A stretch of 64,000 nt of DNA from Kiloniella laminariae (GTDB lineage: Bacteria; Pseudomonadota; Alphaproteobacteria; Kiloniellales; Kiloniellaceae). A program made the position numbers and the translations under genes. Below the pieces are notes generated by a model. It saw only the letters and a list, made by a program, of their open reading frames with translations, made no database searches and was not told the DNA's origin. The first letter of the stretch is position 1. Every line of letters starts with the position of its first letter. This document shows, in pieces, positions 1-54,777 of this stretch. The stretch is from NCBI RefSeq assembly GCF_027214005.1, contig NZ_JAPWGY010000004.1:124001-188000 (forward strand), read 5' to 3'.

Positions 1-90
1 AACAGTTTTGCTTTCAAATGCATTTCGCAGAGAGGTAAATTCCTGCCCGATCCGGTTGGCCAATAGAGAAAGTTTTTGCTCCAGGGACAT
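1..90 (-). CDS. Phage tail fibre-like protein, N-terminal fragment (runs off window)
   Basis: Reading leftward from an ATG at 90, the frame stays open to the window edge, giving 30 residues that begin MSLEQKLSLLANRIGQEF. The start closely resembles that of the next gene to the right (MSLQNSLTNFATRLATE), so the two look like paralogous tail-tip or fibre proteins in tandem. Only 2 bases separate this ATG from the upstream stop, which implies translational coupling in the late operon. The function is inferred from position and from the shared N-terminal pattern; the remainder lies outside the window. Confidence 0.6.
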   Translation of the reverse strand, partial: MSLEQKLSLLANRIGQEFTSLRNAFESKTV

Positions 91-92
91 GA

Positions 93-587
93 TCAGGCCA
101 GCCCGGCTTCAAAAACCGCGATCAGGTCAATATCGGGATTGCCGATATCCGTTTTGGCGACGGCATCGATGTTGGTCCGGGCATTGGCCTGCTCTGCCGG
201 CAGCAACCCTTGGGATGCTGTGTCGGTTCTGACCCGTTTGGCCTGGGCGGTCAGGATTGTTGCGATATCCCCGTCATTACTGGCCAGAGCCGTGGCAAGT
301 TCGCTCAGGGTATCCAGAGCGCCGGGAGCACCATTAACGAGGGCATCCCTGGCGGCAATGATTTCGGCATTGATTTTGGTCGAGGACCAGGTCGATGACA
401 GGGCTGTTGCCGTGTCGTTAATCCCGGTGGCTGTATCAATCAGGCCCTTCAGTTCGTTAATTGCGGCAACCAGGCTGGCTTTATCACTGGTCGAGAGCGA
501 GGCCAGTGCCCCCATCTGATTGCGCAGGTTGTTTGTTTCGGTCGCCAGACGGGTGGCAAAATTGGTGAGAGAATTCTGGAGGGACAT
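93..587 (-). CDS. Phage tail fibre-like structural protein
   Basis: The protein has 164 residues and is alanine-, threonine- and serine-rich. It contains the segment ALVNGAPGALDTLSELATAL (about 86-105), a pattern common in phage tail fibre and collar proteins, and INDTATALSSTWSSTKI (about 56-72), another tail-fibre-type repeat. No enzyme motif is visible. It ends IGNPDIDLIAVFEAGLA, a motif echoed at the end of the upstream gpR-like protein. The start overlaps the upstream stop by one base, so it is co-translated in the P2-like late operon. A virion tail role is likely; the exact position in the tail is not determinable from sequence. Confidence 0.6.
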   Translation of the reverse strand: MSLQNSLTNFATRLATETNNLRNQMGALASLSTSDKASLVAAINELKGLIDTATGINDTATALSSTWSSTKINAEIIAARDALVNGAPGALDTLSELATALASNDGDIATILTAQAKRVRTDTASQGLLPAEQANARTNIDAVAKTDIGNPDIDLIAVFEAGLA

Positions 588-1189
588 TATCCGTTTCCTT
601 GACTGATCAGGTTATCAAAAAGCACCACCAGATTGACCGCGGGATCCCCGATGGTTTCGCTCAGCCGGCTTTCGGTTTTATGGCTTGAATAAACACTTGT
701 CTGGCTGACTGTATCGTCATCAATCAGAACCCCGCCGGGCGGAGGAGGATCGGTTGGGTCGTCTGGATCAGGGATTGGCAGGACCAATCCGTCCGGCATC
801 CCGATCTTGTGGATATTGGGTTCTGGCAGAGAAGTGATTTCGTGGCCATCGGCAACCGGGGAAACAAGGATGTCTTCGCTTAGCGGGATCAGCAGGGAAA
901 CATCGGCCCGTTTATGATCCTGGATATCTATATGATAGCTGATGGCCTCCGGTTTCATATGTGGTTCGTGATCTTCCAGCCAGCTCAGGATGATAAAAAT
1001 CAGGCCGTTAAAATCACCGGTGAAGTCGACCAGGATCACATTGGCATCGTACCGGGTAGCAAAGGAAGGATCGTCGGGATCAAAGTGATGCTGGACCGAT
1101 CCTTTTTCGGCAAAGGTCAGCAGGTTCGCCGGATCAATGCCGATCGGATGTGCAATCAGGAAATCGCGTAGATCGGCAAGCTTTTTCAT
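587..1189 (-). CDS. P2 gpR-like tail completion protein with a C-terminal extension
   Basis: Residues 1 to about 130 follow the P2 gpR pattern: an N-terminal helix, FAEKGSV, ANVILVDFTGDFNGLIF, LSWLEDHEP, then a beta-rich half with SEDILVSP. In P2, gpR with gpS completes the tail so that it can join the head. P2 gpR is about 155 residues; this one has 200, the extra part being a proline/aspartate-rich linker (about 136-155) and a tail containing IDDDTVSQTSVYSSHK and ending IGDPAVNLVVLFDNLIS plus four residues. That tail resembles the fibre-like protein encoded next. It overlaps the holin gene stop by 4 bases. The family call is firm; the role of the extension is unknown. Confidence 0.78.
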   Translation of the reverse strand: MKKLADLRDFLIAHPIGIDPANLLTFAEKGSVQHHFDPDDPSFATRYDANVILVDFTGDFNGLIFIILSWLEDHEPHMKPEAISYHIDIQDHKRADVSLLIPLSEDILVSPVADGHEITSLPEPNIHKIGMPDGLVLPIPDPDDPTDPPPPGGVLIDDDTVSQTSVYSSHKTESRLSETIGDPAVNLVVLFDNLISQGNG

Positions 1190-1641
1190 TGATCCCCCAT
1201 CTGGGTTTTCCGTTTTTCAAAACTCCGGAACGATCCCAGGCCCAGCATGCCGGTCAGGATCACCGAGAGTTCCATCCATTCGATCACCGGGAGGTATTCC
1301 ATGGGGAAAAGCTGGGCATCGGCATAAAACGCCGTGACCTGCAGGGCAAAAACCAGAAAGGGATAGAGAATAAATTTATAGGCCAGGGCAATGCCGCAAA
1401 CCCAGCCGCAGAAGGGGCGCCAGCCGCCTTTGAAATTGCCGCCGTGCTGGGCTTCCATCCGGTTGATTTCCAGCTGACCGGTCAGGACTTTCAGATCGGC
1501 TTCAAGAAAGGCCAGATCGCCACGCTGTTCCAGGTTTTTCATATTCAACAGCGCTTCAGCCCGTTGCGCCGGATCCGGCCAGACCCGTTCGATAACCTTT
1601 TCGGCGACACCAAAGACCGCAGAGATCGGGTCAAAGGACAT
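1186..1641 (-). CDS. Phage holin of the 3-TM type
   Basis: The protein has 151 residues. The N-terminal half (1-70) is soluble and helical, and the C-terminal half carries hydrophobic segments beginning near GWVCGIALAYKFILYPFLV and again near LSVILTGMLGLGSF, ending in a basic RSFEKRKT tail. This is the layout of the 3TM holin family of alphaproteobacterial phages. Start chosen at ATG 1641 (MSFDPISAVFG), which overlaps the lysozyme stop by 11 bases; a longer upstream frame only reads through the lysozyme gene out of frame. It would form the membrane lesion that releases the lysozyme. A second candidate holin lies on the other side of the lysozyme. Confidence 0.7.
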   Translation of the reverse strand: MSFDPISAVFGVAEKVIERVWPDPAQRAEALLNMKNLEQRGDLAFLEADLKVLTGQLEINRMEAQHGGNFKGGWRPFCGWVCGIALAYKFILYPFLVFALQVTAFYADAQLFPMEYLPVIEWMELSVILTGMLGLGSFRSFEKRKTQMGDQ

Positions 1642-2200
1642 GGTCAGACCCCGCCATACCGACACGATTGAGCAGCCAGCCATATATAAAGGTTTCATCC
1701 TTTTCCCGGGCCTCGGCCAAGGCGATATACTTGGCGCCCTGCAGGGCGTTGAGCGCCCGATAAAGCACGGTTTCCCCTTCGCGCTGTCGCAAGTGCAGGT
1801 AGCGCTGAAGGGCGTCAATGGTGGCATTGCCGATCGCGCCGTCGACCACAAGGTCGGGATAGAGCTGTTGCTGTTTGTTAAAAGCGTTGAGGCTGCGTTG
1901 CAGAAATTTTGCCGCCCGACCGACGCCCATATTGACGCCGGTATCCGCCAGCTCTTCGGCAATGAGCGGCGACAGGCCGACGACGTGATCCAGTTTCAGG
2001 CTGTGCCAGTAAAGATCGCTGTAAATCCGGAAAGCCAGATCCCGCGGCAGATCGCGCATCGGGCCTTTGTAGCCGTAATTCCGGGCGACCTGTGCGGTGA
2101 TGCCATACTTGGTTTCGCCGCCGGAATCATCGGGGTTGTTGCTGTAACCCCCTTCAATTTCGATAATGCCGTCAATAAACCGTTGTTTAAGGTCGGTCAT
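1631..2200 (-). CDS. Phage endolysin, glycosyl hydrolase 108 family (N-acetylmuramidase)
   Basis: The 189-residue protein starts with FIDGIIEIEGGYSNNPDDSG, the GH108 signature in which the Glu of EGGY is the catalytic acid, followed by GGETKYGIT. The N-terminal GH108 domain covers about 1-95 and the rest (about 98-180, with VVDGAIGNATIDALQ) fits the peptidoglycan-binding domain usually paired with it. It cleaves the glycan strand of murein at the end of the lytic cycle. No signal peptide is visible, so export depends on a holin. It sits between two small membrane proteins, the normal lysis cassette position after gpX in P2-like phages. Confidence 0.85.
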   Translation of the reverse strand: MTDLKQRFIDGIIEIEGGYSNNPDDSGGETKYGITAQVARNYGYKGPMRDLPRDLAFRIYSDLYWHSLKLDHVVGLSPLIAEELADTGVNMGVGRAAKFLQRSLNAFNKQQQLYPDLVVDGAIGNATIDALQRYLHLRQREGETVLYRALNALQGAKYIALAEAREKDETFIYGWLLNRVGMAGSDHVL

Positions 2201-2372
2201 GCTGTTTTTCCTTTTCCAGGCGGTAATGCAGATATTTAAAAATAAGGTTGGTCATAAAGGTCAGCAGGGCGATGGTGACCCCGGCGAAGGCGACGAATTC
2301 GTTAACCGTGAGACCGAAAATAGTGGCTACACCCGAAGCGATATAGGCCGTGGTGGTCGGGATTTTTTCCAT
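2187..2372 (-). CDS. Phage holin, HP1/P2 gpY-like
   Basis: This protein of about 61 residues has two membrane segments (TAYIASGVATIFGLTV and EFVAFAGVTIALLTFMTNLIF) and ends in a charged tail (RLEKEKQHDRP), as in the HP1-type holins that follow gene X in P2-like phages. The start at 2372 is preferred because GGGA lies about 7 bases upstream; an ATG at 2384 inside gene X is an alternative. It overlaps the lysozyme start by 14 bases. Together with the other small membrane protein it may form a holin/antiholin pair, which is inference. Confidence 0.65.
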   Translation of the reverse strand: MEKIPTTTAYIASGVATIFGLTVNEFVAFAGVTIALLTFMTNLIFKYLHYRLEKEKQHDRP

Positions 2373-2374
2373 AT

Positions 2375-2605
2375 TCAGTCCCATAATTTTATCGTTTTTT
2401 TTTCTGCCCGATCTGGTCCTTTAGCCTGGTCTGGCGCAGGCAGGGTGAGGGTCAGGCCAATCGGCAGGATGGTGCCGCGAGCGGCCAGACCGGGGTTGGC
2501 TTCCAGCACCTTTTCGACCATGGATGAGCCGCCGTAATGCCGAAAACAGATCGCATCGACGCTGTCGTTTTGTTGGCTGATGATGGTGATGGTTGATCCC
2601 GGCAT
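2375..2605 (-). CDS. Phage tail protein X (P2 gpX-like)
   Basis: The 76-residue protein has the LysM-like pattern of P2 gpX: residues around DSVDAICFRHYG, VEKVLEANPGLA and GTILPIGLTLTLP. It is a small tail structural component. It shares one base with the stop of the upstream head completion gene, and lies between L and the lysis genes exactly as in P2. It ends KKTIKLWD with no extension. Confidence 0.85.
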   Translation of the reverse strand: MPGSTITIISQQNDSVDAICFRHYGGSSMVEKVLEANPGLAARGTILPIGLTLTLPAPDQAKGPDRAEKKTIKLWD

Positions 2606-3066
2606 CAGATCAGCTCGATCACACTGCGCGGGCGGTTCATCAGCCGGGACAGGGCTTCGCGCGAGTACTGGAAATAATCATCGGCAGGCAGTTCGACCGT
2701 ATCAGCCTTGTCCCGTCCAGATTTGGTGCTGTCGTAATCGCGCCGGGTTGATATCAGCAGGGCACGAGCCCGGTTAAACACCGCGGATCTGTAGAGGTGG
2801 ACTTTTTCCGAAAGGCCGTCATAGAGCTGCGCCGGCACATCAGCCAGCGTTGTGTAGGTCAGCCCGGCCCGCCAGCTGGCGAGATCGTGGTTGATTTCGA
2901 TCATCGCCTGGCGCAGCAAGGCCACCAGCCGGGTGGCCTCATTGTCGTTGCCCAGGGCCATGTCCGCCTTGAATGCAGCAAGTTCCAGGACCGGATAAAA
3001 ACCATCGTTGGCAAGGGTTTCACTGGTTCCAGGATTGCTGTGGCTGCTGGGGACAAACGTGGACAT
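2605..3066 (-). CDS. Phage head completion/stabilisation protein (P2 gpL-like)
   Basis: This protein of about 153 residues matches gpL in its core: FYPVLELAAFKADMAL, then EATRLVALLRQAMIEINHDLASW, then LYRSAVFNRARALLIS, and DYFQYSREALSRLMNRPRSVIELI at the C terminus. gpL binds the portal and completes DNA-filled heads before tail joining. Start taken at ATG 3066; an in-frame GTG at 3075 is possible. It lies between the gpM-like terminase subunit and gpX as expected, but is separated from gpM by about 130 bases that hold a strong hairpin. Confidence 0.85.
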   Translation of the reverse strand: MSTFVPSSHSNPGTSETLANDGFYPVLELAAFKADMALGNDNEATRLVALLRQAMIEINHDLASWRAGLTYTTLADVPAQLYDGLSEKVHLYRSAVFNRARALLISTRRDYDSTKSGRDKADTVELPADDYFQYSREALSRLMNRPRSVIELI

Positions 3067-3089
3067 CAAGATCACACCATCTGCTGGTT

Positions 3090-3154
3090 AAAAAAAATGG
3101 CGACGGGACAGAAAAGAGATCTTCGGGGGAAAATCTTTTCTTCTGTCGCCGTCG
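3090..3154 (-). terminator. Intrinsic terminator-like hairpin between capsid genes M and L
   Basis: On the minus strand, arms 3154-3133 and 3120-3100 pair over about 20 bp with small bulges, around a 12-base loop (3132-3121). Two bases later comes a run of eight T (plus-strand A run 3090-3097). Orientation and U-tract place termination after gene M and before gene L, inside an operon that P2 transcribes as one unit. It may therefore attenuate, or mark a transcript processing point. Seen directly in the sequence; activity untested. Confidence 0.6.
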
Positions 3155-3195
3155 CACCGGGGGGAACCTCGTTAAACAACGACAGGGGAAACCCC

Positions 3196-3930
3196 TTATT
3201 TTTTAGCCTTCGTCGGCTGGGGAACTGGTTTTTGTTTCGGGTCCGGTTCAGAAGCGGTTGCGGGTTCCTCTTGCGAGGGCTTGAGCAACTTTTCCAACTG
3301 TCCGATTTTGGTTTTAACGCCACATTTTGGATTGAGGTCGAAAGCCGCTTTCAGGTTTTCCAGGGCCAGTTCAGGATTGCTGTCATACAGCAGATATCCC
3401 AGATACTTGAAAGCCTTGCTGCGAACTTCATCGGGCATATCAGTGCCGTCGGTCAGGGCAAAGGCTTCGTTCATCGCATCGATATAGGTCAGAGCCAGAT
3501 CACCTGTCGGCTGCAGCTGTTCCACCTGATCGGCGATTTCTTCCAGCACCAGCGTTGCGGCTGAGCGGGCAAATCGTTCGGGCAGTTGCAGATCGTGTTC
3601 CAGAACATAACTGGCCAGCTGCAAGGCACCGGAGAGATCGCCGACGTCAAAGCGCCAGACCATAACCGTGGTCACAACCAGATCCTGCAGCCCGGTACCC
3701 GCGGCCAGAATGCCATCAACATAACCCTCGTATTCTGGCAGGAATTCGCGTTTCTTGATGATCTTCTGGTTGCGCGACTGGATGCTTTTAAGAATAACTT
3801 CATGGGCACGCAGCCGGGCCAGCATCTGGTCGGTGGTGCTGCCATGAACGCGGTTCTGACCTTTTTCCTTTGAGGCCCCGGCTGAAATTTCAGCCGTGAC
3901 CTTTTCAAAGTGTTTGCGGGCAAGTGACAT
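3196..3930 (-). CDS. Phage terminase endonuclease subunit (P2 gpM-like, small subunit)
   Basis: The 244-residue protein starts MSLARKHFEKVTAEI, as gpM proteins do, then has LRAHEVILKSIQSRNQKIIKKREFLP (split here across residues about 43-68), GYVDGILA, and VVTTVMVWRFDVGD. The C terminus (about 210-244) is a lysine/proline-rich tail. In P2, gpM and gpP form the terminase that cuts cos DNA and packages it into proheads. It is preceded by the capsid gene and followed by a hairpin, then gpL. Confidence 0.85.
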   Translation of the reverse strand: MSLARKHFEKVTAEISAGASKEKGQNRVHGSTTDQMLARLRAHEVILKSIQSRNQKIIKKREFLPEYEGYVDGILAAGTGLQDLVVTTVMVWRFDVGDLSGALQLASYVLEHDLQLPERFARSAATLVLEEIADQVEQLQPTGDLALTYIDAMNEAFALTDGTDMPDEVRSKAFKYLGYLLYDSNPELALENLKAAFDLNPKCGVKTKIGQLEKLLKPSQEEPATASEPDPKQKPVPQPTKAKK

Positions 3931-3976
3931 TGGTGTTCCCCTTTTAATCTGTGATGGCCTGATGGTGCCGGGTCAA

Positions 3977-4993
3977 TCAGATCCAGCCATCATTGGTGGC
4001 GTTTGGCGTCTGGATGCCGTCGATAATGCAGCAGGCACCCAGTTCCTCGATCACATAGTCCTCGTTGACCGACTGGTAATCCTCGATCCTGTCGCGTTTG
4101 GCGTTGTCCGTGATCGTGCGGCGGCGCGATCCTTCCTGGTAATAGATCGAGAGGTTGTTCAATGGCGTGACCATGACCGATTTTGCCGGGAAGAACGGCA
4201 CCGTCATGGTGCGCTTGCCGCCCAGTTGCTTGTTCGCAAGAAGGGTCTGCAGGGCATTGCGTTCGGTCGGCGCCGGGTTGTTATCAACCAGGGACAGATA
4301 TTTATCGTGCAACAGGTCGCGCCCGCAGATCACCACCAGATCGGTGCCTTCGCGGAACCAGGGGTCGATCAGGGAGCCGACGATATCGTAGACGGCAGCA
4401 TCAATGTTTTTGTAATCATTGCCGCCGATATCGCCGACCTTGACGTTGTTCAGGACACGGGCGGGGGCTTTAACACGCATTTCCTGGATCCAGCCGATGT
4501 TGACATCCTGGAGCAGCGGATTTGTTGCCAGATCGGTATCTGTCGCGTGGCTGGTACCGTTAAAGCCGATCATCATGCGATCGCGGGCAATCTGCTCGAT
4601 GACCTGGTTGCGCATCCGTTCCTGAAAGTCCGGGAACTTGGCCCAGAGATCGACAGTAGAATACTTGATATAGCTGTCGAAATCGGTTTTGAAACATTCG
4701 TAACCGTCATCTTCGAGTTCATGAATATCGCGGGGGGTGCGGTCAGAAGAACTTGTATTGGTACGGCTGGCAATTGGCCCGGAGGTGCCGAGACGCAGTT
4801 TTTCCCCTTTGATTTCATCAACCGGAACAATATTGATGGATTTTAGAAAGTCGGAGCTTTCCTGAATCCGGTTTTCCAGTTTCTGTTCGATCGTCGGGTT
4901 GACCGCGAACTGTCTGGTCGGGTCGGTGACCCCGTTGATCTGGGCGATCTGCTGTGTGTAAGCATCAAAAATAACGCGGGATTCGTTTTTCAT
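3977..4993 (-). CDS. Phage major capsid protein (P2 gpN-like)
   Basis: The 338 residues match the P2 gpN family in length and layout: start MKNESRVIFDAYTQQIAQ, FAVNPTIEQKLENRIQESSDFL, a DLVVICGRDLLHDKYL segment near residue 215, and FFPAKSVMVTPLNNLSIYYQ near 270. gpN builds the icosahedral shell on the gpO scaffold. The N-terminal 30 or so residues are probably trimmed by the scaffold protease, as in P2 (inference). It is placed between O and M. Confidence 0.9.
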   Translation of the reverse strand: MKNESRVIFDAYTQQIAQINGVTDPTRQFAVNPTIEQKLENRIQESSDFLKSINIVPVDEIKGEKLRLGTSGPIASRTNTSSSDRTPRDIHELEDDGYECFKTDFDSYIKYSTVDLWAKFPDFQERMRNQVIEQIARDRMMIGFNGTSHATDTDLATNPLLQDVNIGWIQEMRVKAPARVLNNVKVGDIGGNDYKNIDAAVYDIVGSLIDPWFREGTDLVVICGRDLLHDKYLSLVDNNPAPTERNALQTLLANKQLGGKRTMTVPFFPAKSVMVTPLNNLSIYYQEGSRRRTITDNAKRDRIEDYQSVNEDYVIEELGACCIIDGIQTPNATNDGWI

Positions 4994-5052
4994 GTCAGTT
5001 TCCGGTTTCCGGTTGGGGGCAGCGTCGTGTCTGTCTGGGCAAAGGCGTGGCG

Positions 5053-5871
5053 TTAACAGTCGGTCAGGGCGTGTTCGCCGGTACCGTCAGAGGCCGGGCG
5101 GTGGAGATGATCGCCGGCGGGTTGTTTTGAAAGTTTGGTCAGGTTGTCGACCTCTGCCGACAGGCTGGTGATCCGGGCGGACAGCTTGGTGATATCAACC
5201 GTTGCCGCCTTGTCTTCGTTCTGTTTCTGCAGATCGGAAATTGTGCTGGCGCAGAGGGTGATGGCTTCTTGCAACTCGGCAAAAGCTTTTTTATCTGTTT
5301 TCTCAGAAGCGCCGATCATCCCTTTGATTTTTGAGAGCAAAGTTGGTTTGATTTCTTCGTCATCTGCGCTGTCGTCGGCAAAGTCCAGGTCATCTACTTC
5401 GATGGTATCGGTCAAAATCGAATCAGGAAGGTCAGATCCTTTGGAGAACTTTTCTTTGTTTTCCAGACAGAACTTGATCATTTCAGTGCCGATCGAGGCT
5501 GGACTATCCGTTACGGACAATCCCATCAGGTAGGCCTGGTTCGTGTCTGAAAATTTAGGATTCAATTCGATCGAGGAATAAACTTTCTGACCCCGCTTGT
5601 TCAGTTCGATCAGGTCGGCAGTCGGAGCAATCTGGGCCAGCAACACGCGCTTTCCATCTGGTCCGTCTTCTGCTTTGAGGCCGATTACATCACCGTAGGC
5701 CTTGAAAGGACCGTCCGGCATAATCGATCGGTAATGTTCCAGCCAGACCCGGGCCCCATAGGTTTGCGGGTTGTAATTCGCGGCCATCTGATTGATCTGT
5801 TCCGGGCTGATTTCCCGGCCATCAACGGTTTTTCCAGAAGTGGCGACACGGAAGAATTTGGATTTAAGCAT
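5053..5871 (-). CDS. Phage capsid scaffolding protein with protease domain (P2 gpO-like)
   Basis: The 272-residue protein opens with SKFFRVATSGKTVDGREI, the gpO pattern. It also carries ARVWLEHYRSIMPDG (His near residue 46), KVYSSIELNPKF (Ser near 99) and LMGLSVTDSPASIGTEM (near 117), consistent with the His-Ser-Asp catalytic centre of gpO. The second half (about 130-255) is acidic and then coiled-coil-like, the scaffold part. gpO assembles and then cleaves capsid proteins. It is the first gene of the leftward late operon, divergent from the terminase gene. Confidence 0.87.
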   Translation of the reverse strand: MLKSKFFRVATSGKTVDGREISPEQINQMAANYNPQTYGARVWLEHYRSIMPDGPFKAYGDVIGLKAEDGPDGKRVLLAQIAPTADLIELNKRGQKVYSSIELNPKFSDTNQAYLMGLSVTDSPASIGTEMIKFCLENKEKFSKGSDLPDSILTDTIEVDDLDFADDSADDEEIKPTLLSKIKGMIGASEKTDKKAFAELQEAITLCASTISDLQKQNEDKAATVDITKLSARITSLSAEVDNLTKLSKQPAGDHLHRPASDGTGEHALTDC

Positions 5872-6023
5872 GTTTGAGGTGCCTTGTTTGTCGGAACAGG
5901 AGGATCAATTTCACCTCATGGTCGCGGCAAAGCGTAGAAAACATCAAACATTGCCGGGTTGGATTGCGCCAATCCAACCAGCACCCGCGGTTTAAATGTC
6001 AGACATGTCGTTAATTTGAGGGC
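5872..6023. promoter_or_regulatory. Divergent late promoter region between scaffold O and terminase P
   Basis: These 152 bases separate two divergent phage late operons (O leftward, P rightward). In P2 the matching interval holds the two late promoters PP and PO, activated by the Ogr zinc-finger protein. No clear -35/-10 pair stands out here, which fits activator-dependent late promoters. The assignment is by position only. Confidence 0.45.
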
Positions 6024-7838
6024 ATGACCGAAAAGACAAGATCGCCAGATCAAAACCCAGATCAAAACGTTGTTGCCCACAATGCCCGCATACAGGCCCG
6101 TACCCTGTACTGGCAGGGCTATACGATTATGGAAATCTCCAAGGCCCTCAATCTGGCCTATCCCACGGTTGACAGCTGGAAGCGCCGGGACAAGTGGGAT
6201 GAGGCCACGGTTGCAGTTCAAGTAGAAGCCAACATTCACCTGCGTGTCAATCAGCTGATTATGAAGGCTGAGAAAAGCGAGGGCGATTATCGTGAAATCG
6301 ATAATCTGACCAAGGTGTTGGAACGCACCGCCCGGATTGTCCGCTATGCCGAAGGCGGCAAGGAATCTGATCTGAACCCCAAGATCAAGAATCGCAACAG
6401 CGGCAAAAAGAAAAAACCGGACGAGACAAAAAACGCGCTGAGTGAAGAACAGGTCGAGGCCCTGGTCACCGATTTTGACAAGAACCTTTTTGGTCATCAG
6501 CGAAAATGGCGCCGGGCCCGGAAAAAATACCGGCTGCGCAATATCCTGAAATCCCGGCAGATCGGCGCCACCTGGTACTTTGCCCGCGAAGCTTTTGTTG
6601 ATGCCATCACCACCGGTGACAACCAGATTTTTCTCTCGGCGTCAAAAGCCCAGGCCCATGTGTTCAAGGAATACATCATCCAGTGGGTCAAGGAAGTCTG
6701 CGATGTGACCCTGCGCGGTGATCCGATCAAACTGTGGAACGGGGCGACGCTGTATTTTCTGGGCACCAATTCCAGAACCGCCCAGTCCTATCACGGGCAC
6801 CTGTACATGGATGAATATTTCTGGATCCCGCGTTTTGCCGAATTCAGAAAAGTCGCTTCGGGCATGGCGGTTCACAAAAAATGGACCCAGACCTATTTTT
6901 CTACCCCCTCGACCATTGGTCACCAGGCCTATCCTTTCTGGTCTGGCGAAGCCTGGAACAAGGGCAAGGACCAGGCTGACAAGGTCCAGATCGATATCAG
7001 TCACACCGCCTTGAAAAGCGGGGTTCTCTGCGACGACGGCCAGTGGCGGCAGATCGTTACGGTCGAGGATGCGGCGCAAGCCGGCTGTGATCTGTTTGAC
7101 CTGGTGTCGCTGAAACTGGAATACAACGAACACGACTATCAGAATCTCTTCATGTGTCAGTTCGTTGACGACCACGTCAGCTTTTTCAAAATGAGCCAGC
7201 TGGAAAAGTGCATGGTCGATACCTGGACCGCCTGGCGCGACGTGGATTTTACCTCCTTGCGGCCCTATGGCGATCTGCCGGTCTGGATCGGTTATGACCC
7301 CAGCCGTTTCAAGGACGACGCCAGTGTTGTGGTGATCGCGCCGCCGGCGGTACCGGGCGGCAAGTACCGCATACTGGAACGGGTAAAATGGAAAGACACC
7401 GATTTTGAAACCCAGGCCAACGGTATCAAGCGCCTGACCGAAAAATATAACGTGGTCCATATCGGCATTGATACCAGCACCATCGGCCTGGGCGTGTTCG
7501 AGCTGGTGCAGAAGTTCTTTCCCCGGGCGGTGTCGATTTCCTATTCGGTCGAGGTCAAGAACCGCCTTGTGCTCAAAGCCTATCAGGTCATCAGCCGGCG
7601 CCGGCTGGAATTTGACAGCGGTTGGTCCGATCTGGCCATGGCTTTTATGACCATCCGCAAAACCGCGACGGCTTCGGGCCGTCAGACCACCTTTCAGGCC
7701 AGCCGAACCAGTGAAACCGGACATGCCGATGAAGCCTGGGCGGTGATGCATGCCCTGCAGGCCGAAGGCATCACCGCGATTGATGAGCCCGGCGACAACC
7801 CCGTTTCTTTTATGGAGATTTTTGATGGTAACGATTAA
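6024..7838 (+). CDS. Phage terminase ATPase (large) subunit (P2 gpP-like)
   Basis: The 604-residue protein has an N-terminal helix-turn-helix (about 33-55, YTIMEISKALNLAYPTVDSW) for binding the cos region. An adenosine-binding motif follows at about 176-183 (KSRQIGAT), then a Walker B (LYMDEYF, about 259-265). The C-terminal nuclease-like half has acidic residues at IGYDPSR (about 422) and GIDTS (about 480). It is the packaging motor and endonuclease partner of gpM. Start at ATG 6024 with GAGG just upstream. Its end overlaps the portal gene start by 14 bases, the usual P-Q arrangement. Confidence 0.92.
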   Translation: MTEKTRSPDQNPDQNVVAHNARIQARTLYWQGYTIMEISKALNLAYPTVDSWKRRDKWDEATVAVQVEANIHLRVNQLIMKAEKSEGDYREIDNLTKVLERTARIVRYAEGGKESDLNPKIKNRNSGKKKKPDETKNALSEEQVEALVTDFDKNLFGHQRKWRRARKKYRLRNILKSRQIGATWYFAREAFVDAITTGDNQIFLSASKAQAHVFKEYIIQWVKEVCDVTLRGDPIKLWNGATLYFLGTNSRTAQSYHGHLYMDEYFWIPRFAEFRKVASGMAVHKKWTQTYFSTPSTIGHQAYPFWSGEAWNKGKDQADKVQIDISHTALKSGVLCDDGQWRQIVTVEDAAQAGCDLFDLVSLKLEYNEHDYQNLFMCQFVDDHVSFFKMSQLEKCMVDTWTAWRDVDFTSLRPYGDLPVWIGYDPSRFKDDASVVVIAPPAVPGGKYRILERVKWKDTDFETQANGIKRLTEKYNVVHIGIDTSTIGLGVFELVQKFFPRAVSISYSVEVKNRLVLKAYQVISRRRLEFDSGWSDLAMAFMTIRKTATASGRQTTFQASRTSETGHADEAWAVMHALQAEGITAIDEPGDNPVSFMEIFDGND

Positions 7839-8862
7839 ATCGGTAACCAGGGATGAGGCTGTGCAGCCTGCTTCCGCCAGTTTCTTTTCCTTTGGCGATC
7901 CGGTCCCGGTGCTGCAGGGGCGCGATCTGCTCGGCTATTACCATTCTAACTGGAACGGAAAGTATTACACCCCTCCGATTTCCTTTGATGCCCTAGCCAA
8001 AAGCCAGACGGCCAATCCGCATCACAAATCGGCGATGGAGGTCAAGGTCAACATTCTGACCAGCTGTTACCGCGGTCATCGTTTGCTGCCCAAACAATCC
8101 TTCAAACGTTGGGCCACGGATTTTGTGTTTTTCGGCAATGGCTATCTGGAGCTGATCCGCAACGGCCTGGGCGGGAGTTATCAGCTCAAGCCGACTTTGG
8201 CGAAATACACCCGGGTCGGTCGGGAGGGGGCCTTCTGGTATCTGCATGAGATGGGCAAGGAACACGCCTTTAAAAGCCCGGTATTTCATCTGCTCGAGCC
8301 GGATATCAATCAGGAAATATACGGGATGCCTGGTTATCTGGCGGCGCTCAATTCCGCGCTTTTGAATGAAAGCGCCACCCTGTTCCGGCGTAAATATTAC
8401 GAAAACGGATCCCACGCCGGATTTATTCTCTATATGACCGATCCGTTGCAAAATCAGGAAGATATTGATTCCCTGCGCAAGGCCTTGAAGGACGCCAAGG
8501 GACCCGGCAATTTCAAGAACTTGTTTGCCTATTCCCCCAACGGCAAACCCGATGGCATGAAGGTGATCCCGATCGCCGAAGTCGGGGCCAAGGATGAGTT
8601 TCTCAATGTCAAGAATGTCACCCGCGACGATATCCTTGCCGCTCACCGGGTACCGCCGCAGCTGATGGGAATTGTCCCCAACAACACGGGCGGTTTTGGA
8701 TCCGCGACCGATGCCGCCAAGGTCTTCAGCCGCAACGAACTGGTACCGCTGCAATCATCGTTCAAAAGTCTCAATGACTGGATCGGCGAGGAAGTCATGG
8801 TCTTCGACGACTACGTGATCGAGGGGCTGAAAGAGGAATCCGGAACGGGGGAAGAAGAATAA
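7825..8862 (+). CDS. Phage portal protein (P2 gpQ-like)
   Basis: The 345-residue protein matches gpQ: SFFSFGDPVPVL at the N terminus, YYTPPISFDALAKSQTANPHH (around residue 50-70), FGNGYLELIRN, the GMPGYLAALNSALLNESATLFRRKYY region near 170, and the C-terminal RVPPQLMGI with NTGGFGSATDAAKVF. The dodecameric portal is the DNA gate of the head. Start chosen at ATG 7825 (MVTIKSV), inside the end of the terminase gene; longer readings enter the terminase in the wrong frame. Immediately downstream the gene content changes from conserved phage genes to AT-rich cargo. Confidence 0.92.
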   Translation: MVTIKSVTRDEAVQPASASFFSFGDPVPVLQGRDLLGYYHSNWNGKYYTPPISFDALAKSQTANPHHKSAMEVKVNILTSCYRGHRLLPKQSFKRWATDFVFFGNGYLELIRNGLGGSYQLKPTLAKYTRVGREGAFWYLHEMGKEHAFKSPVFHLLEPDINQEIYGMPGYLAALNSALLNESATLFRRKYYENGSHAGFILYMTDPLQNQEDIDSLRKALKDAKGPGNFKNLFAYSPNGKPDGMKVIPIAEVGAKDEFLNVKNVTRDDILAAHRVPPQLMGIVPNNTGGFGSATDAAKVFSRNELVPLQSSFKSLNDWIGEEVMVFDDYVIEGLKEESGTGEEE

Positions 8863-8864
8863 GC

Positions 8865-9176
8865 CTAATACTTCATACACCACAGGGGGATCATACTCTC
8901 CGGGTCTCTCAAGTTATCAAGAAAATAAAAACAGAATTGATGAGCAGCTTCTGCAGCACACATGTTTTTTGGGATTTTTACACTTGCCTCCAGTGCATCT
9001 GACATCATTCCCATAATTCCTGTTGCAGAATAGAGGTGCCGCAACTTGAGATCTTTATCGTCTACGCTCAGGGTAATGGCGTTCACGGTAAATATCGTCT
9101 GGCATATTGTCATGAACTGCTTTTCTTTTTTGTCTTTCTTGAGCTGCAGGAGGATTTCATCATTATTGTCTGACAT
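8865..9176 (-). CDS. Hypothetical small soluble protein at the phage/cargo junction
   Basis: The 103-residue protein is not recognised. It starts MSDNNDEILLQLKKDKKEKQ, a charged helix, then a mixed alpha/beta stretch with four cysteines (Cys near 25, 72, 81 and 99). No membrane segment is visible. A weak ribosome site (GCGGAA) precedes the ATG. Its stop lies 2 bases from the portal stop, so the two genes converge. Its GC content is lower than that of the late genes. Possible moron or defence cargo; no function can be assigned. Confidence 0.5.
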   Translation of the reverse strand: MSDNNDEILLQLKKDKKEKQFMTICQTIFTVNAITLSVDDKDLKLRHLYSATGIMGMMSDALEASVKIPKNMCAAEAAHQFCFYFLDNLRDPESMIPLWCMKY

Positions 9177-9339
9177 GATTCCGCTTCTTTTGGTTGTATA
9201 AAACTGGTCAATAAATCCCTATACCAAAAAAGCAGTGGTTTTGAAGACCGTTATTTGAAAAAATTTTAAATTTGGTAGATCTTCTCCTGGTTTTAAAAAA
9301 CTACTTGCAGAATTAATACAAAAAGTGCCGATCAAATAT
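9177..9339. other. AT-rich spacer without recognised gene
   Basis: These 163 bases lie between two leftward cargo genes. They are rich in A/T runs and carry no convincing ORF. They presumably hold the promoter of the 103-residue gene and the end of the upstream transcript, but no clear motif is visible. Confidence 0.4.
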
Positions 9340-10008
9340 TTATCGTAAATTATTTAAAATGAGCTTTAGTAATCCTGAGTCATAATCTAACTCTTTTTTG
9401 ATGTTAATTAAAATTTCTTTTTCATTCTGTATCCCTTGTTCATAATTAAGACGATACGTGACCAAATTTTTAAGGCGATTTGCGTTTGCCTTGAAATAAT
9501 CGAATTTTGTTTGTCGATTGATGTATTTAATTATATCGACTTTAGTATCATTACTTTCTATTTCTATAATAAATTCTACCAATTCGCTTAAGGATTTTAA
9601 AATTTGAGTTTCGATTAATTTGTTGATTTTATTTAAATATTTTTTATATTGAGCGATTTCTTGGTTTGTTGGTTTTTGTATTTCTGTACGGATAGCTTTA
9701 TAATATGCCAGAAAAAAATCATTCTGTGACTTCCTATCAGAAAAATAGCTTTTAAGTTCCAAAATCGCTTTTTCTTGTGATTTTTGAGTTATTTTTTTTA
9801 CTTTTGACCTTTCAAAATTTAGCTGGTGTTGCGCTACAATATAAACTCCACCAACGGCTATTATCGAGCCAATAATGGAACCTGAAAAAGTTACCCATTC
9901 CCCCTGAGATACAAGCGAAAAAAACAATGGGTTACGATCATAAATCATTGCAAAAATGACGGCAATAGTTACAGAAACTATTGTGATAATTAGAGTTATC
10001 TTTAACAC
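9340..10008 (-). CDS. Hypothetical two-TM membrane protein with cytoplasmic coiled coil
   Basis: The 222-residue protein has a membrane segment at 3-21, a second at about 41-60 containing GSIIGSIIAVGGVYIVAQHQ, then a Lys/Glu-rich, probably coiled-coil cytoplasmic region to the end. The WVTFSGSIIGSIIAVGG stretch recalls the small membrane module at the start of several phage-resistance membrane proteins and parallels the layout of the neighbouring putAbiC protein, but no family match is certain. Very AT-rich with many AAA/ATT codons, unlike the phage late genes, so probably acquired. A copy of a 42-bp direct repeat lies just upstream of its start. Confidence 0.6.
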   Translation of the reverse strand: MLKITLIITIVSVTIAVIFAMIYDRNPLFFSLVSQGEWVTFSGSIIGSIIAVGGVYIVAQHQLNFERSKVKKITQKSQEKAILELKSYFSDRKSQNDFFLAYYKAIRTEIQKPTNQEIAQYKKYLNKINKLIETQILKSLSELVEFIIEIESNDTKVDIIKYINRQTKFDYFKANANRLKNLVTYRLNYEQGIQNEKEILINIKKELDYDSGLLKLILNNLR

Positions 10009-10062
10009 TATTCCCCCTCCTCACTGCTACTACGCCTAAGCCGAGTGTACGGCAGGGGGCGA

Positions 10063-10104
10063 GAAAAACCACCTTAAAACGCAGTTCTCTCTCAGCCCCG
10101 CCTT
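10063..10104. repeat. Direct repeat copy 1 flanking the putAbiC pair
   Basis: This 42-base segment is about 80 percent identical, allowing small gaps, to 11706-11746, with a perfect 14-base core AAAACGCAGTTCTC (10076-10089 here, 11719-11732 there) and shared CCACC and CGCCTT flanks. The two copies bracket the putAbiC gene and the small membrane gene, and each lies just upstream of a leftward gene. It could be a module junction left by recombination or a shared upstream regulatory element. Confidence 0.6.
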
Positions 10105-10175
10105 CGACATCGAAACCGTCGAAACCACCTACTCGATCTCCTCCAGCAAATCAGGTCGGGGCTTTCTGTTATCAC

Positions 10176-11132
10176 CTATTCTTCTATCAGCTGGTTCAGG
10201 GATTGGACGATGATTTCGTTGTACTGGTCACGAAGAAACCCGTTATCCGGCAAGTGATCTTCGTTGAAATTATCCAATAATTGATAGCGTATTATGAAGA
10301 AGCGGTACTTTTCCCCCTTTTCTGTTAAGCAGTTAACGAAAAGAAGCCATAGTTCCTCATCAGTAAAATGCGCCCGAAAGAGCTTTGCATAACCGAGTTC
10401 TTTTGGACAAGGTTGCTCTTCCTTGGAACCAAAGTTCTCCCAGAGTAATTTAAATATTCTGTATGAGAGGCGTAAATATACAGCAAAAGGTAGTATGGGA
10501 TTTTTATCTATAATATAATTATTAAATTCATTTTTGGTCTTATTGCCGTTGTCCAAATGAGTGGAGTCAATTTTTCCAAAATGTCCAATTATTGCAAATG
10601 CTATATGATCAAAAGCAACTTGCGCTTCATAGCTGTTGCCTACAATTCTTAAAATAAATGAATTTTTAATAGCTTGATGCCTGTCGACTAGTTTGAAAAA
10701 AGTATTTTCGAAACTTTGCACAGCAAGATGGGCCGACTGTTCTTTTTGCGCTTCTGCTGCTGCTGTCAGCTGGTCTGTTGTCAGTTTTTGCTCTCTAATT
10801 TGAAGTGCTATTTGTTCATTCGTTTTCTTTAATTCTGTTCTTTGCAGGCCTAATTCTTTTTGTTGCAGGGTTATTGTGTAAATCAAAGCAACAAAGGCAG
10901 CAAAACTGACGATGGGATTTAAAAAACCTCCAAAGAAGTCCCCAGCAGATCCCCAGAGATTATTCGGAACTTCAGTAACGGATAACCAGCTAAAAAAGAA
11001 GGTCCGAATTTGTGGAAAGAAAGTAACTAGGCTGAATAGCGAAAATATCACGCAGACGAAAATGCCTAAGTATAATAGCGGCCTATAAGATTCAAAAAAG
11101 GGTGTTTCCTTGTCATTTTTTGTATCGGCCAT
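10176..11132 (-). CDS. PutAbiC-family phage abortive infection protein
   Basis: The protein has about 318 residues. Two membrane segments (about 18-45 and 66-88) bracket a short loop with WGSAGDFFGGFLNPIVSF, the signature of the putative AbiC family, followed by TLQQKELGLQRTELKKTNEQ, a coiled coil to about residue 138. Then comes SFENTFFKLVDRH (about 139-151) and a soluble helical domain to the end. In Lactococcus, AbiC-type proteins abort phage infection; membrane tethering with a cytosolic sensor or effector domain is typical. Start chosen at ATG 11132 (MADTKNDK) behind AGGA; an ATG at 11153 is possible. It sits in the P2-like cargo slot beside the portal gene, a usual place for superinfection-exclusion genes. 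Confidence 0.8.
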   Translation of the reverse strand: MADTKNDKETPFFESYRPLLYLGIFVCVIFSLFSLVTFFPQIRTFFFSWLSVTEVPNNLWGSAGDFFGGFLNPIVSFAAFVALIYTITLQQKELGLQRTELKKTNEQIALQIREQKLTTDQLTAAAEAQKEQSAHLAVQSFENTFFKLVDRHQAIKNSFILRIVGNSYEAQVAFDHIAFAIIGHFGKIDSTHLDNGNKTKNEFNNYIIDKNPILPFAVYLRLSYRIFKLLWENFGSKEEQPCPKELGYAKLFRAHFTDEELWLLFVNCLTEKGEKYRFFIIRYQLLDNFNEDHLPDNGFLRDQYNEIIVQSLNQLIEE

Positions 11133-11205
11133 AGACTTTCCTGCATATATCAATTTGATAAGCCAAGATCCTTGGCCTGTTAAGCAAATCTGGTTTCATT
11201 CGCAT

Positions 11206-11586
11206 CTAATCTGCTGGTTCAATAATAAAATTGTCGCTTTTGAGTTGGCCCTGTATAGGGCTTCCATCGTAACTCCAGCCCTCTGGTATTATCTTCCAGG
11301 GAAAATTGAAATACTGGAGTTCCCTTCGTGCACCAGGCGGGATGGGAATACCTGAATAGGTATCGATCACCGTCATGGCCCATTCCCGGATGGCTGTTGA
11401 ATCCTTACCGTTCTCTGTAATCGGTTGTTGAAGTATGGTAATCGCCAGTTCGACAGTTCGTAATCTGACTTCCTTGTCCTTGAGGGCTTCTGTCAGGCTA
11501 TTACTGCTGTATCCAATGACAAAGGGGATTACGATGGCAGAAACAACCACCAGCAGTTCCCTGATAATCACAAGCAATTCCTTCAT
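11206..11586 (-). CDS. Small membrane protein of unknown function
   Basis: The protein has about 126 residues. A hydrophobic segment (about 3-24, IRELLVVVSAIVIPFVIGY) is followed by a soluble part with VELAITILQQP, IREWAMTVIDTYSGIPIPPGA and FPWKIIPEGW. Small membrane proteins with a similar REWA/VI..YSG stretch occur in bacteria without known function (recollection, not a search). The start is uncertain: ATG 11586 gives a membrane anchor at the N terminus; ATG 11646 or TTG 11676 would add a poorly conserved-looking leader. It is upstream of putAbiC on the same strand by about 70 bases, so the two could be co-transcribed, and both lie between the direct repeats. Confidence 0.55.
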   Translation of the reverse strand: MKELLVIIRELLVVVSAIVIPFVIGYSSNSLTEALKDKEVRLRTVELAITILQQPITENGKDSTAIREWAMTVIDTYSGIPIPPGARRELQYFNFPWKIIPEGWSYDGSPIQGQLKSDNFIIEPAD

Positions 11587-11705
11587 AAAAGTCATAAAAG
11601 TCAGCCAGTTTTTACAAGAAGTTTGAGGAACTCTACCTGTCGTCATCACCAGTAATCCCCTGCCATGCGTTTTCAACTACCAGTAATGCTTACCGGAGCA
11701 CCCGG

Positions 11706-11746
11706 TAAAAATCCACCCAAAACGCAGTTCTCCCCCCGCCGCGCCT
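11706..11746. repeat. Direct repeat copy 2 flanking the putAbiC pair
   Basis: Partner of the 10063-10104 repeat, with the identical 14-base core at 11719-11732. After the core both copies continue with a C-rich stretch and CGCCTT. It lies just upstream of the small membrane gene and marks the right edge of the two-gene unit. Beyond it no coding sequence is convincing until 12755. Confidence 0.6.
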
Positions 11747-11820
11747 TGGGGCTTAATAGGTCGAAATTTTTGCACCGCAGAACATTCCTGAAACGGGTTA
11801 AAAGCTAGGGTTGATCAGAG

Positions 11821-12365: not shown

Positions 12366-12385
12366 AAGTCAGGCCGGGGGCACCA
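12366..12385 (+). other. Candidate prophage attR core: tRNA 3'-end-like sequence
   Basis: These 20 bases read like the end of a tRNA gene: half of a T loop (AAGTC), a T-stem strand, a seven-base acceptor strand CGGGGGC, a discriminator A and encoded CCA. No 5' part of a tRNA lies upstream, so it would be the displaced 3' fragment left when a phage integrates into a tRNA gene. A strong terminator follows 12 bases later, as at a real tRNA gene end. The intact gene, beginning GCCCCCG in its acceptor stem, would be at the other prophage end outside the window. Confidence 0.45.
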
Positions 12386-12396
12386 ATAGTTTGAAA

Positions 12397-53265: not shown

Positions 53266-54777
53266 CTATTTTTTCCAGATAGATTTTCCTGACCCGGGGA
53301 GGCCCAACTGACTCCAGATATCATCGATTTTTTCGATGACAGCTTCATCCATGCGAATTTCCTCGCCCCATTCCCGTTTGGTCTCAGGTTCCCATTTGTC
53401 TGTGGCATCAAGTCCAATCTTGGAACCAAGCCCGCTTTCGGGAGAGGCGAAATCCAGGTAATCAATCGGAGTACCTTCGATGACTGTAATATCGCGGGCC
53501 GGGTCCATCTTTGTGGACACCGCCCACATCACATCTTTCCAGTCACGCGCATTGATTGTGTCATCCACGACAATGACCCATTTGGTATACATAAACTGAC
53601 GCAGGTAGGACCAGACCCCCATCATCACTCTTTTAGCGTGACCCGGGTAAGCTTTTTTCATCGACACGACGGCAATTCTGTAGCTGCAGCCTTCCGGCGG
53701 TAACCAGAAATCACTGATTTCCGGAAACTGCTGCTGTATCAGCGGAATAAACACTTCGTTCAAGGCTTCTCCAAGCACGGAGGGTTCATCGGGCGGGCGT
53801 CCGGTGAAGGTCGAAAGATAGATAGGTTTTTTCCGCATGGTAATGGCGGTAATGGTAAAAACCGGGAAGGGTTCGACCGAATTGTAATAACCGGTGTGGT
53901 CGCCATAAGGACCTTCATCACCATATTCATCGAGGCTGACAAAACCTTCGAGAATGATTTCGGCATTGGCCGGGACCTTGAGCGGGACGGTTTTACAATC
54001 AACCAGCTCTACTTTTTTACCACGGAGCAAGCCCGCAAACTGATACTCTGACAGGGTATCCGGTACAGGGGTTACTGCGGCAATAATTGTCCCCGGGTCG
54101 GACCCGAGAACCACGGCAGCAGGTAAGGGATCCGGTTTTTGTTTCTTCCAGCGGGCATAATGCTGAGCCCCGCCGCGATGTTTGAGCCAGCGCATCAGGG
54201 TTTTGTTCTTGCCCAGAACCTGCATGCGATAGATGCCAAGATTGAAGACGTCGGTTTTTTCGCCGCCGGGACCTTTGGTGACGACCAGCGGCCAGGTTAT
54301 CAGGGGGGCGGGTTCGCCGGGCCAGCAGGTCTGGATGGGCAGTTTGGCAAGATCAATGTCATCACCCGTCAGGACGATTTCCTGGCAGGGGGCCGAAGAA
54401 ACACTTTTCGGTTTCATGGCCATGACCGTTTTCAGGATTGGAAGATTGTTCCAGGCCTCTTTAAGACTCCCTGGTGGTTCAGGTTGCCTCAAAAAGGCCA
54501 GAGTCTCTCCGACTTCACGCAGTTCTTCCGGGCTGCGCTCCATGCCCCATGCGACCCGTTCAACTGTGCCAAAAAGATTGACCAGAACAGGCATGCCATA
54601 CGGGGTCCCATCCTCCTGTATGACGTTTTCAAACAAGACAGCAGGCCCGCCCTCGGCCAGAAGTCTGGTCTGGATTTCGGTCATTTCCAGCAGCGGTGAA
54701 ACAGGGTGGGAAACCCGGATCAGGCGCCCTTGGTCTTCAAGGTGGGTAATAAAATCCCGCAAGGAGGAGTATGGCAT
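53266..54777 (-). CDS. ubiD: UbiD family decarboxylase (3-octaprenyl-4-hydroxybenzoate carboxy-lyase)
   Basis: The 503-residue prenylated-FMN-dependent decarboxylase has [17 protein letters not shown] at the N terminus, [28 protein letters not shown] (about 175-202), [19 protein letters not shown] (about 276-294, catalytic Glu region) and the C-terminal [17 protein letters not shown] (about 400-416). It decarboxylates the ubiquinone precursor. The gene follows the NfeD gene by only 3 bases. UbiA is encoded about 7 kb away in this window. Confidence 0.92.

Follow-up and report, generated by a model that had tools for sequence, protein, structure and literature searches.

Among the tested defence genes of Escherichia coli are some that P2-like phages carry beside cos (PMC9122126, PMC9519451). 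In the sections of these papers used here, Rousset et al. 2022 (PMC9122126) locate the P2 hotspot beside cos, with gpA and gpQ as its borders, and four of the systems tested by Vassallo et al. 2022 (PMC9519451) lie in that cos-proximal position. Hotspots adjacent to cos have supplied many E. coli anti-phage genes, the turnover of their content being left to speculation, namely that the cohesive ends drive the exchange of cargo (PMC9122126). For one of the gene families considered below, the closest described proteins are Pdp-Sau, which is prophage-encoded, membrane-anchored and AbiP-like by model, and which brings about abortive infection accompanied by a drop in membrane potential, and AbiP, cited in the same source as membrane-anchored and nucleic-acid binding (PMC10127798, consulted in part). 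Here we describe a cargo region next to a cos-like site in Kiloniella laminariae. The DNA analysed (the window) is a stretch of 64,000 nucleotides (nt), G000:C44:124001-188000 of the 4.38-Mb host genome G000, and holds part of a P2-like prophage in which four open reading frames, ORF1 to ORF4, lie beside the portal gene Q (Table 1). ORF3 encodes a protein of the Pfam family putAbiC.

Our reading, to which we give a probability of about 0.6, is that this is a P2 cargo slot next to cos holding two independent defence modules stacked one behind the other, ORF4 with putAbiC and ORF2 with ORF1. We favour two modules over one system because the set of four genes lacks a second occurrence and its members have other partners in two related prophages, G008 and G004. 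An original prediction, made from the bare sequence, had placed four leftward, AT-rich genes at 8865-11646 beside portal Q, and this holds: the reading frames are as called, 1-kb windows have a G+C content of 31-44% across 9-12 kb and of 51-56% across the phage genes at positions 1-9000, and the left neighbour is a P2-type portal (phrog_68, E 8.5e-144), itself preceded by terminase. It had also offered stacked single-gene defences in a P2 cargo slot as one option; the stacking stands, and the units now appear as two-gene modules.

Two cos-like elements, each ahead of a gene pair

A 41-nt direct repeat, overlooked in the original prediction, stands ahead of ORF2 (copy 1) and ahead of ORF4 (copy 2), the copies being 78% alike. 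When the 23-nt core of P2 cos was compared with the whole 64 kb, the two best places were position 11723 in copy 2 (19/23) and position 10080 in copy 1 (18/23). None of 100 simulated windows exceeded 18/23 and two reached it, so that copy 2 beats all of them and copy 1 is equalled by two. Over the 27 core positions the two copies agree at 23, a count that did not exceed 20 in any of 200 simulated windows. The element opens with the same pattern as the cohesive ends of Smp131 and P2 (PMC3931495, in the part consulted). In P2, reading from cos, a terminator is followed by the 3′ end of Q; the window has the same orientation, with the cargo intervening. Copy 2 is likely to be the prophage's cos.

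With up to three mismatches allowed, the cos motif turned up in three (G000, G004 and G008) of the order's 61 genomes examined, each time directly ahead of cargo, and its reversed control gave no match in the same 61 genomes. Among 385 sampled genomes of the class it was found in two, G000 and G004; G008 lies outside that sample. On the attachment side, the window and G008 are 71% alike over ~510 base pairs (bp), including 29 consecutive identical nt at copy 2, and the similarity fades soon past the cos core, at about the start of the cargo.

The repeat could instead be mainly a promoter or leader common to the cargo operons, its likeness to P2 cos being partly accidental and no cos having been duplicated. 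All four copies (two in the window, one each in G008 and G004) do stand directly ahead of the first cargo gene, and the resemblance of copy 1 to copy 2 and to the G008 element continues past the core, where neither score was reached by any of 300 shuffles; the same was true of the G008 and G004 elements. For the other pairs, the score was reached by 49 of 300 shuffles (copy 1 and G004), 77 (copy 2 and G008) and 104 (copy 2 and G004). We nevertheless consider this explanation unlikely: the two best places for the P2 core in the 64 kb are exactly the two copies, they are oriented to Q as in P2, they share the opening pattern of the Smp131 and P2 ends (PMC3931495), and the homology with G008 runs through the attachment arm right up to copy 2. 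Moreover, a cos and a promoter can coexist.

The same slot in related prophages

G008 is a contig of an uncultured Rhodospirillales metagenome-assembled genome. Its prophage is related to that of the window: the portal is 73.5% identical to the window portal over residues 29-363, and the integrase (E 6e-22) adjoins a tRNA-Leu that shares its anticodon with the tRNA-Leu of the window prophage. Its slot reads cos, a 258-residue membrane protein, an ORF1 relative (54.5% identity), a short Ala/Lys-rich frame, a convergent 240-residue gene and the portal. The 258-residue protein is weakly ORF2-like (BLASTP E 5e-5) and occupies the same position; the ORF2-like/ORF1 pair is thus carried beside the portal without putAbiC, behind a single cos.

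The G004 slot consists of a cos-like site, a 215-residue PD-T7-4-like protein (PADLOC PD-T7-4, E 4.1e-64; DUF4145, E 8.3e-14), a putAbiC protein 48% identical to ORF3, and an antisense remnant of the portal 3′ end (residues 284-367, 56%, E 1.6e-22). It lies between a tRNA-Gln gene and a partial copy of the 3′ end of that gene, recognised by eye, and its flanks, ~2.26 kb apart in G004, are 54 bp apart in G007. The portal remnant, the tRNA-Gln copy and the 54-bp gap in G007 mark this locus, judged on sequence, as what is left of a prophage after erosion, namely cos, cargo and a portal shred, in which the cargo reading frames are still open. We also considered a free-standing cos-bearing mini-island and rejected it on the portal remnant and the partial second tRNA-Gln end (by eye).

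In G202, an Abi_alpha protein (PF14337, E 2.5e-17) is encoded two genes from a P2-like portal, codirectional with the portal and not convergent. The content of the slot therefore differs among relatives (G008, G004 and G202) and includes the defence-type genes PD-T7-4-like and Abi_alpha. As a separate observation, this genome belongs to another alphaproteobacterial family, four genes follow its portal in the portal's direction (L056 1222-5005) in what appears to be a defence slot, and a weak HEPN match (E 0.0033) is found there as well.

Besides the window, eight portal or portal-remnant loci (L009, L011 and L052-L057; tblastn E <= 0.01) were available. ORF1 with an ORF2-like gene occurred in one (L009), putAbiC in one (L011) and ORF4 in none; the slot is incompletely seen in this set because some loci end soon past the portal. 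Co-occurrence of the four genes in other P2-like prophages, proposed in the original prediction as a check, was thus not found in any of the eight, nor were the four together in any of 37 viral-contig loci with putAbiC.

The putAbiC protein and its family

ORF3 is the only one of the four products with a named family, as had been claimed: it scores 47.6 bits against the Pfam putAbiC model (curated cut-off 22) and matches phrog_8999 (E 3.2e-24). The claim that three of the four are membrane proteins also agrees with a simple hydropathy scan, which gave two membrane stretches in ORF2, two in ORF3, one in ORF4 and none in ORF1. The two in ORF3 are N-terminal and predict a membrane anchor there; the single one in ORF4 is N-terminal, and the two in ORF2 are followed by a mostly charged, helical-looking tail.

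An AlphaFold2 model of ORF3 (mean predicted local distance difference test score, pLDDT, 82.0; predicted template modelling score 0.62) has helices at residues 17-49 and 58-158, then two short strands and a helical C-terminal part. Compared with solved structures, the putAbiC sequence gave only matches of E >= 0.23.

Relatives of ORF3 were found in 3 of 58 genomes, its own included and one being a weak partial match, and, at E <= 0.01, in 6 phage records and 26 plasmid records. Scans with single proteins found no relatives in viral contigs, and for putAbiC none in genome contigs either; a five-member putAbiC alignment found 37 loci in viral contigs. With flanks of up to 5 kb examined (3 of the 37 gave no reading frame by script), a portal was present in two (L086 and L087), and none of the 37 had a match to ORF1, ORF2, ORF4, the G008 membrane protein or the PD-T7-4-like protein (tblastn E <= 1e-3). 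An alignment of 25 members, ORF3 and 24 of these 37 viral-contig relatives, links the family by profile to known abortive-infection proteins: 20 members match Pfam putAbiC and 13 DUF6082, and in PADLOC 20 match AbiP (best E 8e-17) and 7 AbiC (best E 1.6e-14). From this family and the membrane layout, ORF3 is probably a membrane-anchored abortive-infection protein.

Two further occurrences of the family, or of its pattern, are recorded here. On two Vibrio plasmids putAbiC sits amid short unrelated genes that give the impression of gene cassettes. At the tail-gene end of the G008 prophage there is a 340-residue membrane protein with a putAbiC-like N-terminal pattern (L010 13531-14553, G008:C14 ~53530-54552); it is weakly matched by ORF3, as the second match in G008 (E 5.6e-5), and no Pfam family reaches the cut-off for it.

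The cargo might also consist of lysogenic-conversion or fitness genes with no anti-phage role. The name putAbiC marks the family as 'putative', a search of a library of open-licence papers for putAbiC or PF16872 gave none, and ORF1, ORF2 and ORF4 have no known function. We think this quite unlikely, given that relatives carry PD-T7-4-like and Abi_alpha genes in the same slot and that a putAbiC relative on a Cupriavidus plasmid lies between SbcC-like/DUF4194/DUF3375 genes, a trio that we take to be Wadjet-like, and a HEPN gene.

Proposed stacked modules at cos

We propose the following organisation. Both modules would be transcribed from the cos side toward the portal gene. The ORF2 and ORF1 module would be the counterpart of what G008 carries alone behind its single cos. 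From the anatomy of the locus, the ORF4 and putAbiC module, headed by the conserved cos, may have been added between the attachment-site arm and an older cos, which would thereby have been left as an internal, decaying copy. An N-terminal helix pair would hold the putAbiC protein in the inner membrane, leaving the long helix and an AbiP/AbiC-like C-terminal domain on the cytoplasmic side. By analogy with AbiP and Pdp-Sau, this cytoplasmic part would respond, on infection by another phage, to a phage product or nucleic acid, and would then stop phage replication, depolarise the membrane, or both; the cell would be lost and the lysogen population would survive. Operon position hints that ORF4 may be a small accessory membrane partner of putAbiC, and that ORF2 and ORF1 may be a second membrane effector and its small cytosolic partner.

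Several results weigh against this proposal. The cos is assigned by similarity; the exact cos pattern had no match in viral contigs, no comparable cos-like site was seen in the more distant portal relatives L052-L057, and just past the core copy 2 was not detectably like the G008 and G004 elements (three of six pairs of elements were within the shuffles). A search of defence databases had been suggested in the original prediction: PADLOC detected no system among the four cargo genes and no match at E <= 1 for ORF1, ORF2 or ORF4, and ORF3 itself gave a weak AbiP match (E 0.005). PADLOC likewise gave nothing for six of eight scanned slot proteins of relatives that have no known family. ORF1, ORF2 and ORF4 are orphans, with no Pfam or NCBIfam match above curated cut-off and a best PHROG match of only E 0.0088. 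Compared with PDB folds, neither the ORF3 model nor the ORF1 model, which is all-helical (mean pLDDT 81.6), had a match at E <= 0.001.

A single membrane-based defence system made up of all four genes, the other option of the original prediction, is highly improbable: the genes are adjacent on one strand and three have membrane stretches, but the modules are 168 nt apart with a cos-like element inside the gap, putAbiC occurs without the other three in all 37 viral-contig loci, and with no second occurrence of the set anywhere searched and partners swapped in G004 and G008 we rejected it. Equally improbable is a packaged P4-like satellite that landed beside the prophage and left the ~1.6 kb bracketed by the cos-like copies; P4 likewise has a cos adjoining cargo (PMC9122126), and we dismissed the idea because between the copies there are only ORF4 and ORF3 and no satellite gene, that is, no integrase, primase or capsid-sizing gene. 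Nor was any relative seen in which cos, ORF4 and putAbiC adjoin genes of a satellite.

The reading of two stacked modules leads to a more tentative suggestion, about which we are doubtful: in this phage group cos may double as a cassette boundary, such that modules travel as 'cos + operon', with incoming ones attached at the cohesive ends or close by, and leave the displaced older cos to decay inside the slot. The decayed internal cos-like copy is a possible footprint of such cargo exchange at cos. If this were true, the window would be a physical record of one event of this kind, and direct evidence for a route of exchange that has hitherto been speculative. Between ORF3 and copy 1, blastn against the examined loci revealed no gene remnant and no similarity to an attachment-site arm, the cos match being all that was found. 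By title, no P2-like case of duplicated cos sites was among the matches listed from the open-licence literature.

Gene calls, relatives and prophage context

The features of the region are collected in Table 1. Start codons of ORF3 and ORF4 were chosen by our own judgement: the ATG of ORF3 has a likely ribosome-binding site, and upstream TTG codons would give 325 residues for ORF3 and 156 for ORF4. Scans for promoters (17 promoter-like sites against 10.6 +/- 3.0 in shuffles) and terminators (3 against 3.5) were uninformative, and Rfam gave one match, under its cut-off.

Table 1. Coordinates of the cargo genes, cos-like elements and flanking features in the window.
Feature	Position	Strand	Remarks
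Terminase large subunit, gpP type	6024..7838	+	Profile matches
Portal gene Q	7825..8862	+	Open frame from 7750, likely start 7825; convergent with cargo
ORF1	8865..9176	-	103 residues; cytosolic helical orphan family; second gene of portal-side module
ORF2	9340..10008	-	222 residues, GTG start; first gene of portal-side module
cos-like copy 1, degenerate	10064..10104	-	Ahead of ORF2; 18/23 to P2 cos core
ORF3, putAbiC protein (PF16872)	10176..11132	-	318 residues from ATG
ORF4	11206..11646	-	146 residues from ATG; first gene of putAbiC module
cos-like copy 2, likely the prophage's cos	11707..11747	-	19/23 to P2 cos core
attR core	12367..12386	+	20 nt identical to the 3′ end of the tRNA-Leu gene at L023 12637-12721

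Relatives of ORF4 were found in 2 of 23 genomes of the family, among them G022 (E 3.9e-14), and in 3 of 385 of the class, its own genome included in both counts. ORF2 was found in its own genome only among the 23 of the family. ORF1 has relatives in 2 of the 23 and in 2 of 398 genomes of the phylum, again including its own, as well as in three plasmid records (two of Burkholderia glumae and one labelled Bacillus safensis), and three genome-contig loci (the contig of G008, Cupriavidus and Robbsia); G595 is one of the genomes with a relative. Neither ORF2 nor ORF4 had a match in phage or plasmid records, ORF1 had none in phage records, and ORF2 had no tblastn match (E <= 1e-3) beside ORF1 in L015, L034 or L035. 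ORF1 may tend to accompany membrane proteins. In Cupriavidus basilensis (L034 6001-7086) an ORF1 relative is located just ahead of a 202-residue apparent membrane/coiled-coil protein, which has no Pfam family and no tblastn match to ORF2. The record labelled Bacillus safensis (NZ_CP015609.1; L016, 22 kb) has its ORF1 relative among proteobacterial-looking frames, and the label may be wrong.

The prophage is ~39.7 kb long and is sited at a tRNA-Leu gene (L023 12637-12721), which lies ~39.7 kb left of the attR core and adjoins a Phage_integrase gene (PF00589, E 5.5e-22). From the integrase end the order is integrase, C5 cytosine methylase, a primase-like gene named by eye, a helix-turn-helix gene (PF01381, 20.7 bits, below the cut-off of 23), LuxR and LuxI, then tail genes from gpD (PF05954, 28.3 bits, below the cut-off of 30.1), capsid-side genes, terminase, portal, cargo, cos and attR, to the right of which host genes follow. 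A Ner-like gene seen by eye in G008 had raised the possibility of a transposable, Mu-like phage, which was rejected because of the Phage_integrase protein and the 20-nt att core at tRNA-Leu.

Two features lie elsewhere in the prophage. The C5 cytosine DNA methylase (PF00145, E 3.9e-50) is at L023 14421-15821, ~25.6 to 24.2 kb left of the window start. The LuxR-type receptor (PF03472, E 9e-20) is encoded beside the LuxI-type autoinducer synthase (PF00765, E 2.8e-25) at L014 2872-3594 and 3691-4272, ~17.1 to 15.7 kb left of the window start, and by eye the G008 prophage has apparently the same pair. In the part of a review consulted (PMC7790227), a predicted LuxI-LuxR pair is mentioned for one uncharacterised phage of the Myoviridae.

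Comparison with known systems

The four proteins and their slot-mates in relatives (PD-T7-4-like, Abi_alpha and the ORF1 family) make up a small set of candidate defence proteins from hosts other than E. coli. In G004, where erosion of the prophage has spared little besides the cos-like site and the cargo, one can see how phage cargo may turn into a chromosomal gene. Most deserving of further attention is the internal cos-like copy that has decayed: a slot in which both modules have a cos-like copy ahead of them, one copy being degenerate, makes turnover testable through internal cos relics in P2-like prophages.

Like AbiP and AbiC of Lactococcus and Pdp-Sau of Staphylococcus, ORF3 has a predicted N-terminal membrane anchor and a cytoplasmic domain, and like Pdp-Sau it is prophage-borne; its family is linked by profile to the PADLOC models of AbiP and AbiC. 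It differs from all three in its helix pair and long helix, its own AbiP score is weak, and the OB-like fold with which Pdp-Sau is described (PMC10127798, in part) was not seen in the all-but-helical ORF3 model. PD-T7-4, the DUF4145-type system of Vassallo et al. 2022, has its relative with putAbiC in the G004 slot; it is absent from the window, where ORF4 is in its place.

The old/tin region of P2 likewise consists of lysogenic-conversion genes next to the cos of a P2-like prophage. The genes are different, however, and the original prediction of exactly this slot does not hold because old and tin lie beyond cos from Q, whereas the cargo here lies between Q and cos, where P2 has only a terminator annotated. 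The E. coli P2/P4 hotspot is the closer parallel, with variable, AT-rich cargo beside cos and portal and defence-type genes that differ from one relative to the next; in the window the cargo adjoins both the portal and copy 2, the cos being assigned by similarity. Known, then, is a cos-proximal P2 defence slot. What differs here, in a host outside E. coli, is that the cargo lies on the portal side of cos, that the other boundary is attR, followed by host genes, and not gpA, and that two modules stand behind two cos-like copies, the degenerate one between them.

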